Positions 303-62,948 of a stretch of DNA of 64,000 nucleotides are shown here, piece by piece. A program made the translations under genes and the position numbers. The notes beneath the pieces are model-generated. The model made no database searches. It was not told the DNA's origin and worked only from the letters and a program-made list of their open reading frames with translations. Source of the stretch: Polaromonas sp. Its GTDB lineage: Bacteria; Pseudomonadota; Gammaproteobacteria; Burkholderiales; Burkholderiaceae_C. Position 1 is the first letter of the stretch, and every line of letters starts with the position of its first letter. The stretch spans positions 1 through 64,000 of the forward strand of contig NZ_JAQSDN010000009.1 of the NCBI RefSeq assembly GCF_029945925.1. The letters run 5' to 3'.

Positions 303-360
303 TGCTATAAACTCAATAGCTGTCTGCGCACACTGGACAAGGGCTACAGGCCGATTTGAT
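303..360 (+). repeat. Dispersed 55-bp repeat, copy R1
   Basis: It matches the family pattern 'aatagctgc-tgcgc ... aagggct-aggcc-attttg' shared by ten sites in this window. This copy is intergenic, just downstream (3') of the leftward universal stress protein. Confidence 0.75.
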
Positions 361-401
361 GTAGAAACCGGATGGATCAGGCAAGCGCCCGAGTGAAGAA
401 C

Positions 402-7810: not shown

Positions 7811-7910
7811 GAGCGCAAGCAACGCCTCTGGAGCGTCGCACCTGTTCGAAGTCCGGGAGACGAACCTTAACCGATGTGGCCGGCCGCGGGCCGATGCCTC
7901 CAAAACACTC

Positions 7911-7962
7911 TTCTTTTAATAGCTGCCTGCGCCCGCCAGGCAAGGGCTACAGGCACTTTTTA
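7911..7962 (+). repeat. Dispersed 55-bp repeat, copy R2
   Basis: 'ttttaatagctgcctgcgcc...aagggctacaggcactttt' matches the family. It sits between the channel start and the acyl-CoA ligase stop. Confidence 0.75.
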
Positions 7963-13736: not shown

Positions 13737-15017
13737 TTGCTTGATCTTTCCCCTTTCCGTTTGTCGCGGCTTGCCTGCACATCGTTATTGCTGCCGGCCG
13801 CCCTCACGCTTGCCAGTGCGCAGACCGTGCCGCCGCGACCCCTGCCATCCCTGGCCGAAGCCGCAGCGCCCACGGGCGCCACCAGCCTGCGCGAAGCGCT
13901 GGATGCGGCCTGGGCCCTGAGCCCGGCAGCCCGCAGCGCCGACAGCCGCCGCGCCCAATTGCAAGCCAGGGAACGCGCGGCATCGTCCTGGATCAACGGC
14001 TCGCCCAGCGCCCTGCTGGCGCAGCGCAGCGACCGCTTCAACAACAACAGCGGCTTGCGGGAATACGAAGCCGAGCTGGAACTGCCGATCTGGAGCCCCG
14101 GCGTGCGCGGCGCCACCCAGCGTGAGCTGGCAGCGCTGCGCCTGGGTTTCGAGCCGCAGCAACAGGTGGCGCGGCTGAAACTCGCTGCCGAGGTGCGCGA
14201 AGCTGCCGCCAGCGTGGCCGTGGCGCGCACCGAACGCGACCTGGCGCAACGCAAACACAGCGAAGCACAAACACTGGCGCAGGACGTGGAACGCCGCGTG
14301 AAAGCCGGTGACAGCGCCCGTGTGGACGGCTTGCAGGCGCAGTCCCTGGTCCAACAGGCCGCCAGCGGACAGGAACAGGCGCAGCAGGCCTTGGCCCGTC
14401 TGCAAAACCAGTGGCGGGCACTGACCGGCCTGACCGCAGTGCCGTTGCTGGACGAGCCGCCGCCGTCCGCGAGCCCGGTCATGGGTCCAGACCACCCGGT
14501 GCTACAGGCCGCGCAGACACGGGTCCAGGCGGCGCAAGCTGCGCTCGAACTGAGCGAAACCGACAAGCGCGACCCGATGTCCGTCGGTGTGGGCATCACG
14601 CGCGAACGTTCGGCCTTTGGCGCCGCGAGCGAGAACAGCTTGCGCCTGGCACTGAAAATTCCCTTCGGCACCGACAGCCGCAATGCCCCGCGCATCGCTG
14701 CGGCACGCGCAGAACTCGACGCCGCGCAGGCCGAACTGGATGCCACCCAGCGGCAGGTACAGACCGAACTGGCATCGGCACTGGCCGAGCTCGACGCCGC
14801 CCGCCGCACGCAGGCCAGCATGGCCGAACGCGCGCGCCTGGGCACCGAGGTGCAAGCCCTGGTGGCCAAGGCGTACCGCCTTGGCGAGTCCGACCTGCCA
14901 ACCCGGTTGCGCGCCGACAGCGAAAAGTTTGAGGCCGATCTGTCCCTGGCGCGCGCCCGTGTGGGCCTGCAACGCGCCGTTTCCCAATTAAACCAAGCTC
15001 TTGGATTGCTCCCATGA
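13737..15017 (+). CDS. CzcC-like outer-membrane efflux protein (TolC family)
   Basis: A TolC-family outer-membrane factor of about 426 aa with a signal peptide ending near TLASAQ, then two long alpha-helical repeats rich in Ala, Gln and Glu (for example 'SLREALDAAWALSPAARSADSRRAQLQARE'). No lipobox is present. I chose TTG at 13737, which has ggag 7 nt upstream; the track's TTG at 13719 has none. The stop overlaps the next start (ATGA), indicating translational coupling to the adaptor gene. Confidence 0.85.
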   Translation: MLDLSPFRLSRLACTSLLLPAALTLASAQTVPPRPLPSLAEAAAPTGATSLREALDAAWALSPAARSADSRRAQLQARERAASSWINGSPSALLAQRSDRFNNNSGLREYEAELELPIWSPGVRGATQRELAALRLGFEPQQQVARLKLAAEVREAAASVAVARTERDLAQRKHSEAQTLAQDVERRVKAGDSARVDGLQAQSLVQQAASGQEQAQQALARLQNQWRALTGLTAVPLLDEPPPSASPVMGPDHPVLQAAQTRVQAAQAALELSETDKRDPMSVGVGITRERSAFGAASENSLRLALKIPFGTDSRNAPRIAAARAELDAAQAELDATQRQVQTELASALAELDAARRTQASMAERARLGTEVQALVAKAYRLGESDLPTRLRADSEKFEADLSLARARVGLQRAVSQLNQALGLLP

Positions 15018-16693
15018 ACCTCATTTACAAGCCAAATACGCCACCAGCCCATATCCAGAAAGCGCTGGCAGCTATTTTTTTTATAGCGTCTGGTTTGTTT
15101 GCCACGGCCTGGGCTGGGGGAGACCACGGTGCAGAAGCGCCAGCGGCGGCAGGTGTGGTCACCTCCCCGCGCATCAGCAGCCATTCCGACCTGTTCGAGC
15201 TGGTCGGCGTGGTCGACAACGGCGAGATGAAAATTTACCTGGATCGTTACGAGAGCAACGAGCCGGTCATCGATGCAAAGATCGAGGTCGAGGCCGGCGC
15301 AGCCAAAGGGACAGCCGCGCCCCAGCCGGACGGCAGCTACAGCTTCAAACATGACTTGCTTGGCCAGCCGGGCACGCTGGCTGTCAGTTTTGTCGTCGCC
15401 GCAGGTAAAGATACCGACCTGCTGGCTGGTGACCTGGTCATCACCGACCCCCACGCCGCGGACGAGCACCTTGACGCAAACCGGCCCTGGCTGCGCTGGG
15501 CAGCGTACGCGGGAGCTGCCCTGCTGCTGGCGGCGCTCGCCGGTGCGGCATGGCGAAAGCGCCGCCGCAAAGGCCTGGCCGGCATGTTGATTGCCGCCTG
15601 CGCCTTGGGCCTGGGCGCAACCGCCACCCTGGACGCTCAGGCGGGGCCGGGTCACGACCCCGGTGACGAGTCCGCTCCTGCTGCGGGTGGCAACGCGCCG
15701 CGGCGCCTGGCCGATGGTGGCGTGTTTTTGCCCAAGGCCAGCCAGCGTCAACTCAGCGTCCGAACCATCAGCATCGAAGAAGCGTCCCTGCCGACAACGG
15801 TCGAGCTGACAGGCCGGGTGGTGCTGGACAGCAACGCCGGCGGCAAGGTGCAGCCGACGCAAGCCGGCCGCATCGAAGCCGGTCCTCGCGGCCTGCCGCA
15901 ACTGGGCCAGGCTGTTCGCAAGGGAGAAGTCCTCGCAGTAGTGCGCGCCTCCACCAGCGCGATTGAACGCGCCAACCAGCAGGCGCAAAGCGCTGAGCTC
16001 AATGCCAGCCTCGCCCTGGTGCGACGGCGCGTGGAACGCCTGCAGCAACTTGAAGGCACGGTGCCGCAAAAAGACATTGAAGCCGCGCAGTCCGATGTTT
16101 CCAGTCTGCGGCAGCGCGCCGCCGCCGTGGCCGGCAGCGTGTCGGCCACCGAAGCTCTGGTGGCACCGGTCTCGGGGGTGATCGCCGCCGCCGGCGTGGT
16201 GGCCGGACAGGTGGTCAATGCCGGCGACCTGCTGTTCGAAATTGTTGATCCTTCTCGCATGGGTGTGGAGGCCAGCGCCTTTGATGCCGCGCTGGCCGCC
16301 AACATCGCCTCGGCCAGCGCCAGCCCCGCGCCCGGCGCCAACGTGCCACTGCAATTTGTCGGTGCCGGGAGCAGCCTGCGCGAAGGCGCGATCCCGCTGG
16401 TCTTCCGCACCCTGCCGGGCAAAAACACCATACCCCTGTCCATCCACCAGCCGGTCAAAGTGACGGTGCAGACCAAGAGCCAGGTCAAGGGCTTTGCCGT
16501 GCCGATGGGTGCGGTGGTCAAAAATGCCAGCAACCAGGACATGGTGTGGATCCACACCGATGCCGAGGTGTTCCAGCCGCGCACCGTGCGCCAGGTGCCG
16601 CTGGACGGCAGCACCGCTGCGATTGTGGATGGCCTGAAAACCGGTGACCGGGTGGTGACGCAGGGCGCGCCGCTGGTCAACCAGGTTCGCTGA
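15014..16693 (+). CDS. RND periplasmic adaptor (CzcB/HlyD type) with extra N-terminal domain
   Basis: A 559-aa membrane-fusion protein, longer than the usual 350-420. Residues 1-32 form a signal or anchor partly encoded by a dispersed-repeat copy. Residues 45-150 form an extra beta-rich domain. A membrane segment at about 159-180 (WLRWAAYAGAALLLAALAGA) is followed by a basic patch and a second signal-like helix at 187-205. From about 230 the classic adaptor follows: barrel-sandwich halves ('TQAGRIEAG', 'LVAPVSGVIAAAGVVAGQVV'), a coiled-coil hairpin, and a membrane-proximal beta domain. It would link the inner-membrane pump to the OMF. The architecture suggests an ancient gene fusion. Confidence 0.85.
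   Translation: MNLIYKPNTPPAHIQKALAAIFFIASGLFATAWAGGDHGAEAPAAAGVVTSPRISSHSDLFELVGVVDNGEMKIYLDRYESNEPVIDAKIEVEAGAAKGTAAPQPDGSYSFKHDLLGQPGTLAVSFVVAAGKDTDLLAGDLVITDPHAADEHLDANRPWLRWAAYAGAALLLAALAGAAWRKRRRKGLAGMLIAACALGLGATATLDAQAGPGHDPGDESAPAAGGNAPRRLADGGVFLPKASQRQLSVRTISIEEASLPTTVELTGRVVLDSNAGGKVQPTQAGRIEAGPRGLPQLGQAVRKGEVLAVVRASTSAIERANQQAQSAELNASLALVRRRVERLQQLEGTVPQKDIEAAQSDVSSLRQRAAAVAGSVSATEALVAPVSGVIAAAGVVAGQVVNAGDLLFEIVDPSRMGVEASAFDAALAANIASASASPAPGANVPLQFVGAGSSLREGAIPLVFRTLPGKNTIPLSIHQPVKVTVQTKSQVKGFAVPMGAVVKNASNQDMVWIHTDAEVFQPRTVRQVPLDGSTAAIVDGLKTGDRVVTQGAPLVNQVR
15032..15084 (-). repeat. Dispersed repeat copy R4, inside the adaptor signal region
   Basis: On the minus strand it reads 'aaaaaatagctgccagcgct...atgggctggtggcgtatttgg', matching the family. 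On the plus strand it encodes PNTPPAHIQKALAAIFFIA, the N-terminal hydrophobic segment of the adaptor. Confidence 0.75.
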
Positions 16694-21584: not shown

Positions 21585-22034
21585 ATGCGACGCCCCCTGT
21601 TCATCGCCATGATCTTCCTGCTGCTCCTGCGCGGGATGGTGGGCGATGCCATGGCTACCGGCATGGCCGCCGGTCATCTGCAACAGGTGGCTTCCGCTAC
21701 AGAATTCGTAGCTGCTTACGCCCATGAATCAAGGGCAGACGGTCATTTTGACCATGACATGGCGATGGAGCCGGCAGCATCCATGACTCATTCGGCGGCA
21801 ATTCCTCCGGATTGCGCAGGACACGCCTCTGGCCAGACTTCCGACCCCATGACCCAGGGCGCCACCGGGCACTGCGACTCCTGCGCCGCCTGCCAGTCCT
21901 GCAACACGGTCGCGCTGTCGCCGGTAACAGCCAGCACCGATTCCCTCGCCATTCCCCCTGCGCGGGCGCATTCGCCGACCGCGCGATTTGCCAGCGCCGT
22001 CGCCGCGCTGGGCCAAAAACCACCCATTTCCTGA
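21585..22034 (+). CDS. Secreted His/Cys/Met-rich protein (CzcI-like, second copy)
   Basis: A 149-aa exported protein heading the copper operon. Signal peptide MRRPLFIAMIFLLLLRGMVGDAMA is followed by a His/Met region ('GHFDHDMAMEPAASMTHS') and a Cys cluster ('GHCDSCAACQSC'). The first part of the mature chain (ATEFVAAYAHESRADG) is encoded by a dispersed-repeat copy. Composition and position parallel the CzcI-like gene at 13267. It may buffer or sense periplasmic copper; no family name is certain. Confidence 0.68.
   Translation: MRRPLFIAMIFLLLLRGMVGDAMATGMAAGHLQQVASATEFVAAYAHESRADGHFDHDMAMEPAASMTHSAAIPPDCAGHASGQTSDPMTQGATGHCDSCAACQSCNTVALSPVTASTDSLAIPPARAHSPTARFASAVAALGQKPPIS
21696..21749 (+). 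repeat. Dispersed repeat copy R5, inside a secreted protein gene
   Basis: 'gctacagaattcgtagctgcttacgcc...aagggcagacggtcatttt' is the most complete copy, alignable over its whole length with R9 and R10. It is in frame and encodes ATEFVAAYAHESRADGHF. Confidence 0.8.
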
Positions 22035-25321: not shown

Positions 25322-25909
25322 ATGACAACCCGATTTACTCTCAAATTAATAGCTGCCGGCGCTTTACTGATGGGGGCTGGAGGCACATTTGGCCAACATT
25401 CGCACCAGCCGTCACATAACGCCAGCCCTTATGCAGGTCAGCAAATACGCGAGATCAAGGCCCTCTCGTCCACCCAGACCGCCGACCTGCTGGCCGGCCA
25501 GGGCATGGAACTGGCCAAGGCCGCCGAACTCAACGGCTACCCCGGGCCCATGCACACGCTGGAGCTGGCCGCGCAACTCGAACTGAGCGCGGAACAGAAG
25601 CAGGCCAGCGAAACGCTGATGAACCGCCACAAGGCGGAGGCTCGGGACCTGGGCACCCAGCTGGTGGAAGCCGAACGTGCGCTGGATCAGGCTTTTGCGT
25701 CGCGCCAGATCGATGCAACCCGGCTGGCGGCCCACACCGAAAGCATAGGCCGGCTGCAGGCCCTGCTGCGCAAGTCGCATCTGGACACCCATCTGCAGCA
25801 AGCCGCGCTGCTGACACCTGCGCAGATCACCCGTTATGCGCAGCTGCGCGCTTATGCCGGGCCCGCCGCTGGCGCAGCACCAGCCACCGCTCCCATTCAC
25901 AAGCACTGA
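25322..25909 (+). CDS. Periplasmic Spy/CpxP-like helical protein
   Basis: A 195-aa exported, largely helical protein. The mature part has the paired helices 'LNGYPGPMHTLELAAQLELSAEQKQASETLM' and 'LLTPAQITRYAQLR' that recall the LTxxQ-type motifs of Spy/CpxP and heavy-metal sensor-associated proteins. It begins GQHSHQPSHN and ends IHKH, so both ends carry His. The signal peptide KLIAAGALLMGAGGTFG is encoded almost entirely by a dispersed-repeat copy. It probably acts as a chaperone or metal sponge in the copper operon (inference). Confidence 0.75.
   Translation: MTTRFTLKLIAAGALLMGAGGTFGQHSHQPSHNASPYAGQQIREIKALSSTQTADLLAGQGMELAKAAELNGYPGPMHTLELAAQLELSAEQKQASETLMNRHKAEARDLGTQLVEAERALDQAFASRQIDATRLAAHTESIGRLQALLRKSHLDTHLQQAALLTPAQITRYAQLRAYAGPAAGAAPATAPIHKH
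25337..25394 (+). repeat. Dispersed repeat copy R6, encoding a signal peptide
   Basis: 'ctctcaaattaatagctgcc...ggggctggaggcacatttgg' matches the family. It is in frame and supplies the hydrophobic core TLKLIAAGALLMGAGGTFG of the Spy-like protein. Confidence 0.8.
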
Positions 25910-30027: not shown

Positions 30028-30450
30028 TCACCTGGCGGGCGCAGGCGGCATGCGGTCCATCATCATTTTCATCATGGTCTGCATCATCTCCATGCGTTTT
30101 TCCATCATCTGCTGGCGCGCGTCCAGGTCGCCGGCCATACCCGGCATGCCTTTCATGCCGCCCATGCCAGCGCCGGACATACGGTCCATCATGGCCATGC
30201 CGTCCTGCATCGTTTTCATGTGTTCGGCCATCAGTTTGTTGCGCTCTTCTGCGGTCTTGGCGTTCATCATTTTTTCGTGCAAGCCCTGCATGGTCTTCAT
30301 CTGCGCATCCATCCTGGTCATCTGGTCAGATGCAGCCATGCTGGGGGTGCTTGTGCTGCCCATGCGCATGGCAGGGGCTGTATTGCAGGCAGTCAATGCG
30401 CCGACAGCGGTGAGCGCTACGGCAAGGGGAATAAATCGGAATTGGGTCAT
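30028..30450 (-). CDS. Met-rich lipoprotein, paralogue of the one at 57 kb
   Basis: A 140-aa lipoprotein (lipobox LTAC near residue 20) whose mature part is extremely Met-rich, with motifs such as 'MDAQMKTMQGLHEKMMNAKTAEERNKLMAEHMKTMQDGM' and '[28 protein letters not shown]'. The same motifs occur in the protein at 57141. Dense Met suggests Cu(I)/Ag(I) binding in the periplasm (inference). Start 30450 has aggag; the track's longer start lacks support. Confidence 0.8.
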   Translation of the reverse strand: MTQFRFIPLAVALTAVGALTACNTAPAMRMGSTSTPSMAASDQMTRMDAQMKTMQGLHEKMMNAKTAEERNKLMAEHMKTMQDGMAMMDRMSGAGMGGMKGMPGMAGDLDARQQMMEKRMEMMQTMMKMMMDRMPPAPAR

Positions 30451-37644: not shown

Positions 37645-37687
37645 CGCGAGGCCTTCTCCGCCTGCACTTCTGGAAGAAGCCGCTTTT

Positions 37688-37748
37688 TGCTATGATATTC
37701 ATAGCTGCTGGCGCACGTCAATCAGGGGCTTGAGGCCGTTTTTATCAA
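37688..37748 (+). repeat. Dispersed 55-bp repeat, copy R7
   Basis: 'tgatattcatagctgctggcg...ggggcttgaggccgttttta' matches the family. It lies between the Usp operon end and the TAXI gene. With its T-rich end it could assist termination. Confidence 0.78.
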
Positions 37749-57140: not shown

Positions 57141-57605
57141 ATGACACCTCTTCGCCTGGTTTCGATCATCGCCGTCACCGCTACCTTGGGCCTGGCCGGT
57201 TGCGCCCAGACACGTTACGGTCACATGGCCCATCATGGCGGCGCAGCACCGGCATCCGGACAAGCCATGCCCATGGCCGGTCCCGGCGGCCCTATGGCGC
57301 GCATGGACGACCACATGACCGCCATGCGTTCCATGCACGACAGGATGTCACGCGCCAAAACGCCGGAGGAGCGCAATGCCCTGATGGCTGAACACCAAAA
57401 ACTCATGCAGGACGGCATGGGCATGATGGGCGGCATGGGACCCGGTGCCATGGGCGGCATGGGTGGCATGATGGGACCCGGTCCGGGCCCCATGGCTGGC
57501 GACCCGGCGGCACGCCAGCAATGGATGGAAAAACGCATGGAGATGATGCAGTCCATGATGCAGATGATGATGGACCGCCTGCCCCCGGCACCTGCCAAAC
57601 CCTGA
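57141..57605 (+). CDS. Met-rich lipoprotein, paralogue of the one at 30 kb
   Basis: A 154-aa lipoprotein (lipobox LAGC near residue 21). The mature chain is Met/Gly/Pro-rich, with '[40 protein letters not shown]' and '[28 protein letters not shown]'. These blocks align with the protein at 30028; a Gly/Met insertion ([15 protein letters not shown]) is unique here. Start ATG 57141 has ctggag upstream. It probably binds Cu(I)/Ag(I) in the envelope and heads a second copper locus. Confidence 0.8.
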
Positions 57606-62874: not shown

Positions 62875-62886
62875 AGGCCGCAGCCA

Positions 62887-62948
62887 TTTGCTACTGAATA
62901 CATAGCTGCTTGCGTCCGTGGTTATTGGGCTGGAGGCCTTTTTTGCTT
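62887..62948 (+). repeat. Dispersed 55-bp repeat, copy R10
   Basis: 'gctactgaatacatagctgcttgcg...attgggctggaggcctttttt' is a full copy, lying between the convergent tag and MATE genes. Its T-run could help terminate tag transcription. Confidence 0.8.

Follow-up and report, generated by a model that had tools for sequence, protein, structure and literature searches.

A dispersed Comamonadaceae repeat as the probable source of the signal peptide of a Spy-like protein in Polaromonas

Can a dispersed repeat become the export signal of a protein, and does it then create that signal or replace an older one? The question is raised by a gene at 25322..25909 (+) in a 64,000-nucleotide stretch of DNA (the window) from a Polaromonas-like genome of 4.78 Mb (G000). 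Its reading frame is open from ATG 25322 to the stop at 25907-25909. The 195-aa product is a Metal_resist (Spy-like) periplasmic protein which, with 31.6 bits, exceeds the cut-off of PF13801 Metal_resist (29.2). The score for PF07813 LTXXQ (Spy/CpxP) was 22.4 bits, just under the cut-off of 24.3, so that the label 'Spy-like' is fair as a statement of resemblance. The gene is part of a copper cluster, with a multicopper oxidase on one side and a cupredoxin on the other.

The predicted signal peptide, MTTRFTLKLIAAGALLMGAGGTFG (25322..25393, +), ends before QHSH, with cleavage predicted as MTTRFTLKLIAAGALLMGAGGTFG|QH; the QH is conserved in many orthologues. Simple rules for Sec-type (SPase I) leaders ask for a basic n-region, an uncharged hydrophobic core and small residues at -3 and -1. 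The leader has all of these, as MTTRFTLK / LIAAGALLMGAGG / TFG, of which TFG is a passable, less than ideal cleavage motif. It presumably directs export and is cleaved. With a pN/pS ratio of 0.47, against 0.22 for the mature part of the protein, the repeat-encoded codons are constrained, though loosely. Loose constraint is usual for signal peptides.

Most of this leader is encoded by a repeat copy, R6. A profile HMM that drew on 216 other copies, R6 being masked, found R6 in sense orientation at 25338..25391 (+) with 41.9 bits (nhmmer, E 1.3e-10, 1.65 Mb searched), a significant match to the Comamonadaceae repeat; the top match in reversed sequence reached 15.0 bits. By eye, the resemblance spans 25334-25393, and the 37-nt repeat core is present with 0 mismatches. 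R6 covers codons 5-24 (FTLKLIAAGALLMGAGGTFG, by eye), about 20 of the 24 leader residues, in frame. The original prediction, that R6 at 25337-25394 belongs to a dispersed repeat and encodes nearly all of the signal peptide, was borne out on both counts, with a repeat-encoded part slightly longer than the KLIAAGALLMGAGGTFG given there.

The repeat has a high copy number. Its 37-nt core pattern occurred 365 times in the 4.78-Mb genome (≤3 mismatches), against 1 match of a backward-pattern control, and a similar pattern matched the window three times and none of 100 shuffles. The consensus of about 60 nt, TTGCTATnnATTtaATAGCTGCTtGCGCccGc...acAAGGGCTGGAGGCc.ATTTgaCtt, has an A+T-rich 5' end. A GCTAT/ATAGC hairpin is internal to the repeat, and about half of the intergenic copies in G000 pair it completely; the consensus ends have by eye no inverted-repeat relation to each other. 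Rfam 15 gave no match in the window at gathering score. Most copies are intergenic, single and dispersed. Further copies in the window, all on the plus strand, are located at 315..369, 7897..7961 (with an open frame through it, not counted as a leader), 37679..37743 and 62880..62944, and a degraded one at 21686..21750. The window also holds a 106-nt inverted repeat pair (30033-30138 and 57492-57597, 85% complementary) without relation to the leader repeat.

Most Polaromonas genomes tested have 179-427 copies, but several have only 1-40. Elsewhere, 544 copies were found in G036, the single genome that represents another genus, 295 in G263 and 65 in G015, and most other tested genomes of Comamonadaceae were near the control level. 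Among 66 loci (392 kb) from other taxa, the sole match was a Curvibacter (Comamonadaceae) locus. A plasmid collection held three copies, none established as a leader, and no Comamonadaceae relative of the Spy-like protein was found in it.

Orthologues of the Spy-like protein were compared for the presence of the repeat. The close ones in Polaromonas share the leader, in which the repeat scores 34-43 bits. In farther ones the repeat is degraded yet recognisable (L056 35.2, L133 34.0, L059 30.6, L138 28.9 and L058 22.0 bits), and the leader of L057 has only 7.5 bits to the repeat model. About a dozen distinct orthologues retain the repeat in frame as their leader, with an identical register to the mature protein. 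The same mature protein follows unrelated leaders in the orthologues of G358/JS666, G253, G116, G200 and beyond, several of which share QH after the cleavage site. The same leader was sought in distant taxa free of the repeat: the tested genomes with a repeat leader all hold 40-544 copies, those without it mostly 0-34, and the leaders of distant orthologues are unrelated. Exceptions are G263 and G015, repeat-rich genomes in which the leader of the Spy-like gene has no repeat. No near-identical strain pair with and without R6 was seen among the orthologues compared.

Because the repeat-free orthologues also carry signal peptides before the same mature protein, the repeat most likely replaced, rather than created, the export signal. 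The original prediction had left both possibilities standing; replacement fits better than creation. On the mature-domain tree, the repeat leader must have been gained or lost four times (4-5 in bootstraps), but the well-supported branches are compatible with a single origin. The leader of L137 (KATQLAAACTLAVWTSASFAQH) resembles a diverged form of the same repeat leader. Read in this way, it makes one old origin followed by decay as possible as several recruitments.

The Spy-like protein is not the only case in the window. A repeat copy at 15033..15087 (-; nhmmer 40.2 bits, E 4.4e-10) lies antisense to a CusB/HlyD_D23-like RND adaptor gene (15014..16693, +; Pfam PF16576, PF13437), whose leader MNLIYKPNTPPAHIQKALAAIFFIASGLFATAWA (15014-15115) is encoded across the antisense of the copy. 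The same kind of leader is present in the CusB orthologue of G036 (L265), and a second CusB copy in G000 (contig 10, 83% identical) has an antisense repeat leader, MNAIFKPNRPLSLVHKALAAIIFIAF.... The G301 CusB orthologue has the repeat at the same offset, 26 nt from the start.

A survey of 1.65 Mb of G000 and 1.17 Mb of G036, with predicted gene starts, revealed repeat leaders on 9 and 12 exported-protein genes, respectively. In G000 these are the Spy-like gene (25322), the CusB-like gene (15014), L168, TctC (L184), a BamB lipoprotein (L159), DUF2147 (L206), SBP_bac_5 (L211), SCO1 (L174) and DUF4136 (L154), the last two being weak cases with 23.0 and 21.8 bits. In G036 they comprise an M16 peptidase (L270), a SoxA-type cytochrome and a cytochrome c lipoprotein (L226), CusB (L265), a PBP (L255), L227, HMA and Spy-like proteins (both L223), FecR/LysM (L273), TctC (L246), a large protein with a sub-threshold Big_1 match (L279) and L274. 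Most of these genes fall in normally exported Pfam families; L168, L227 and L274 had no Pfam match. Both orientations of the repeat occur, and the sense cases share one frame, as do the antisense cases.

By simple prediction of genes and signal peptides, the repeat overlapped 14 of 563 signal-peptide N-termini, against 2 of 1895 others (odds ratio 24, p 7e-8). This enrichment is circular in part, as the hydrophobic core comes from the repeat. The exported Pfam families of the repeat-leader genes are an independent check. Of the two non-signal overlaps, one is a missed signal peptide (L255); among the 14, L233 uses a different frame and is doubtful. The automatic rule was strict; the leaders of CusB, TctC, BamB and some others were missed by it and taken in separately. 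Copy density per kb was highest between genes (0.57-0.95), intermediate in leaders (0.25-0.38) and lowest in other coding sequence (0.04-0.08).

Two of the six frames of the repeat are leader-like, sense ..KLIAACARPIRAGGRF and antisense ..NRPPALDGRAQAAIKF, and encode peptides that closely resemble a Sec leader. As they stand, intergenic copies would mostly not serve as leaders. Only 3% (G000) and 2% (G036) of them have an open, uncharged sense core in the frame of R6, and the antisense frame is open and uncharged in 5% and 16%. A stop interrupts the sense frame in 29% of the G000 copies and 84% of the G036 copies. Every sense leader has an open, uncharged core, and those of G036 all lack a stop in the sense frame.

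In G015 and Curvibacter, the repeat leader sits on the cupredoxin and not on the Spy-like protein (L034 ~950-1010, L062 ~2497-2551); the Spy-like domain is apparently fused behind the cupredoxin in one reading frame. Cupredoxin and CusF domains are apparently in one reading frame in G036 (L036/L223), where the start of the cupredoxin leader MKTLTTIKSIAAVALLAC resembles the repeat with 10.8 bits only. HMA leaders provide a natural comparison with and without the repeat across Polaromonas species.

The strongest alternative is that an ordinary old signal peptide with a short homology to the repeat was overwritten and kept similar by gene conversion, with no element insertion. We regard this as a real possibility that falls short of being the favoured explanation. 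In the two genomes compared, leaders fit the repeat subtype of their own genome: the G036 orthologue has 40.6 bits with the G036 model and 26.4 with the G000 model, and R6 drops from 41.9 bits with its own model to 13.8 with that of G036. This pattern could also stem from separate recruitments or vertical co-divergence. The HMA genes point in the same direction. Their leaders contain the repeat in L052:6421 (30.4 bits) and in G036 L223:5955 (44.3 bits), and three other relatives (L055, L051 and L054) have matching flanks on either side, with the core between them 12 nt shorter and the repeat undetectable; a degraded repeat with a 12-nt deletion would, however, look alike. The normal length of the leaders also agrees with gene conversion, which would have to span about 55 nt between copies as diverged as these. 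The exaptation foreseen in the original prediction is supported by the in-frame leader kept in about a dozen orthologues; the insertion event it suggested does not follow, as an older leader may instead have undergone gene conversion.

The copy could have been kept for a role in DNA or RNA, as a hairpin near the start codon, with the leader as a tolerated by-product. Predicted folding is about equal in leader and intergenic copies (-15.0 versus -16.2 kcal/mol in G000, -13.0 versus -13.2 in G036), as such a role would have it. Yet the 5' hairpin of R6 is paired at only 3 of 5 positions, and the sense leader cores differ from intergenic copies in being open and uncharged, which makes this explanation improbable.

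Still less probable is a location of the repeat in an untranslated leader, with the true start downstream and a meaningless frame overlap. Such cases exist elsewhere. A repeat copy ends at the likely start codon of gpsA (L235:15235-16287), touching the start and outside the protein-coding part, and the domain starts past the repeat. On a Diaphorobacter plasmid, the annotated TolC start (TTG) lies within a repeat copy in another frame (L283:2489-2544) and looks wrong. The reading is true for these two and is rejected for R6: no further in-frame ATG comes before residue 61, which is already within the conserved part, every repeat-leader orthologue has an open frame across the repeat with an unchanged register, and such families need a leader.

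It is very improbable that the family descended from a leader-coding sequence copied around the genome. The recurrence of one frame among the sense leaders would fit such a descent, but the copies are mostly intergenic, hairpin-bearing and interrupted in this frame, leaders are drawn from both strands, and G263 and G015 have the repeat and lack this leader. Chance or convergence, by which Ala-Ile-rich leaders in rare codons would mimic the repeat, may account in part for the low scorers L154 and L174 and is rejected for R6 as next to impossible, given its E value, the shuffled, backward and reversed controls and the restriction of matches in other taxa to the Curvibacter locus.

R6, one copy of an abundant and mostly intergenic Comamonadaceae repeat, has thus very probably turned into the signal peptide of the Spy-like protein and displaced an older leader, and about 20 surveyed genes appear alike. 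The comparison of sequences suggests the following course. A repeat copy would come to overlap the 5' end of a gene for an exported protein, with one of the two leader-like frames open. As both frames are near to a Sec leader, an in-frame copy at a gene start can serve as one. Stops and charged core residues would be lost through a few substitutions, and the copy would take the leader role. Selection would then retain the recruited leader, and the older one would be lost. The change itself is best described as a replacement, which may have proceeded by insertion or by gene conversion.

Repeats within genes are known from other bacteria. The Yersinia palindromic sequence RU-2 forms part of one predicted leader, that of YPO1552 (Delihas 2007, PMC2759123; reviewed in PMC2229807). 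Like the Comamonadaceae repeat, it is small, dispersed and palindromic and lies in frame in a predicted signal peptide, and the leaders of orthologues from other genera are unrelated (PMC2759123). RU-2 has 168 bp and contributes part of one leader to one putative exported protein, with further weaker cases mentioned (PMC2759123). In contrast, the Comamonadaceae repeat of about 60 nt provides most of the leader in about 20 genes of established exported families, from both strands and in two genera. Rickettsia palindromic elements sit in frame within genes (Ogata et al., reviewed in PMC2229807). By description, they resemble the Comamonadaceae repeat as mobile or formerly mobile elements with in-frame copies retained in coding genes. 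Their insertions are mostly neutral additions within proteins (PMC2229807), whereas the Comamonadaceae repeat yields a functional-looking N-terminal export signal.

The BRE element is likewise dispersed in Polaromonas and other Comamonadaceae, mostly intergenic and sometimes in ORFs (PMC3110155). It has about 90 bp, about 69% G+C in Bordetella and at most 29 copies, often in tandem (PMC3110155). With about 60 nt and hundreds of dispersed copies, the leader repeat is set apart from BRE by description. In Enterobacterales, signal peptides were gained through the full insertion of an N-terminal stretch, and an ISEScan search near the gained N-termini found no transposable elements (PMC5952966). 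No element source was found for these gains, in contrast to the Comamonadaceae leaders, for which a repeat is identified as the source. Repeated recruitment across many exported families and in both orientations was not described in the literature searched, that is, the literature accessible without subscription.

For annotators, the findings are a caution in two directions: such repeats can be coding, and annotated starts can lie within a repeat without a leader, as for the Diaphorobacter TolC. For the Comamonadaceae, we tentatively consider a wider role of the repeat as a genome-wide reservoir of signal peptides, recruited in both orientations by unrelated genes, with leaders exchanging by gene conversion; this is possible, but we would not yet count on it. 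Leaders in such an exchange with the family would evolve in concert with the repeat subtype of each genome. The origin of new or exchanged signal peptides is largely an open question, and the leaders described here have a defined source. As some orthologues have this source and others lack it, the recruitment, the mutations it needed and the fate of the old leader become traceable. The repeat offers two reading frames as nearly ready-made leaders. Since it forms the predicted export signals of the Spy-like protein and about twenty other exported proteins, it seems to have supplied such signals many times over in Polaromonas and a related genus.
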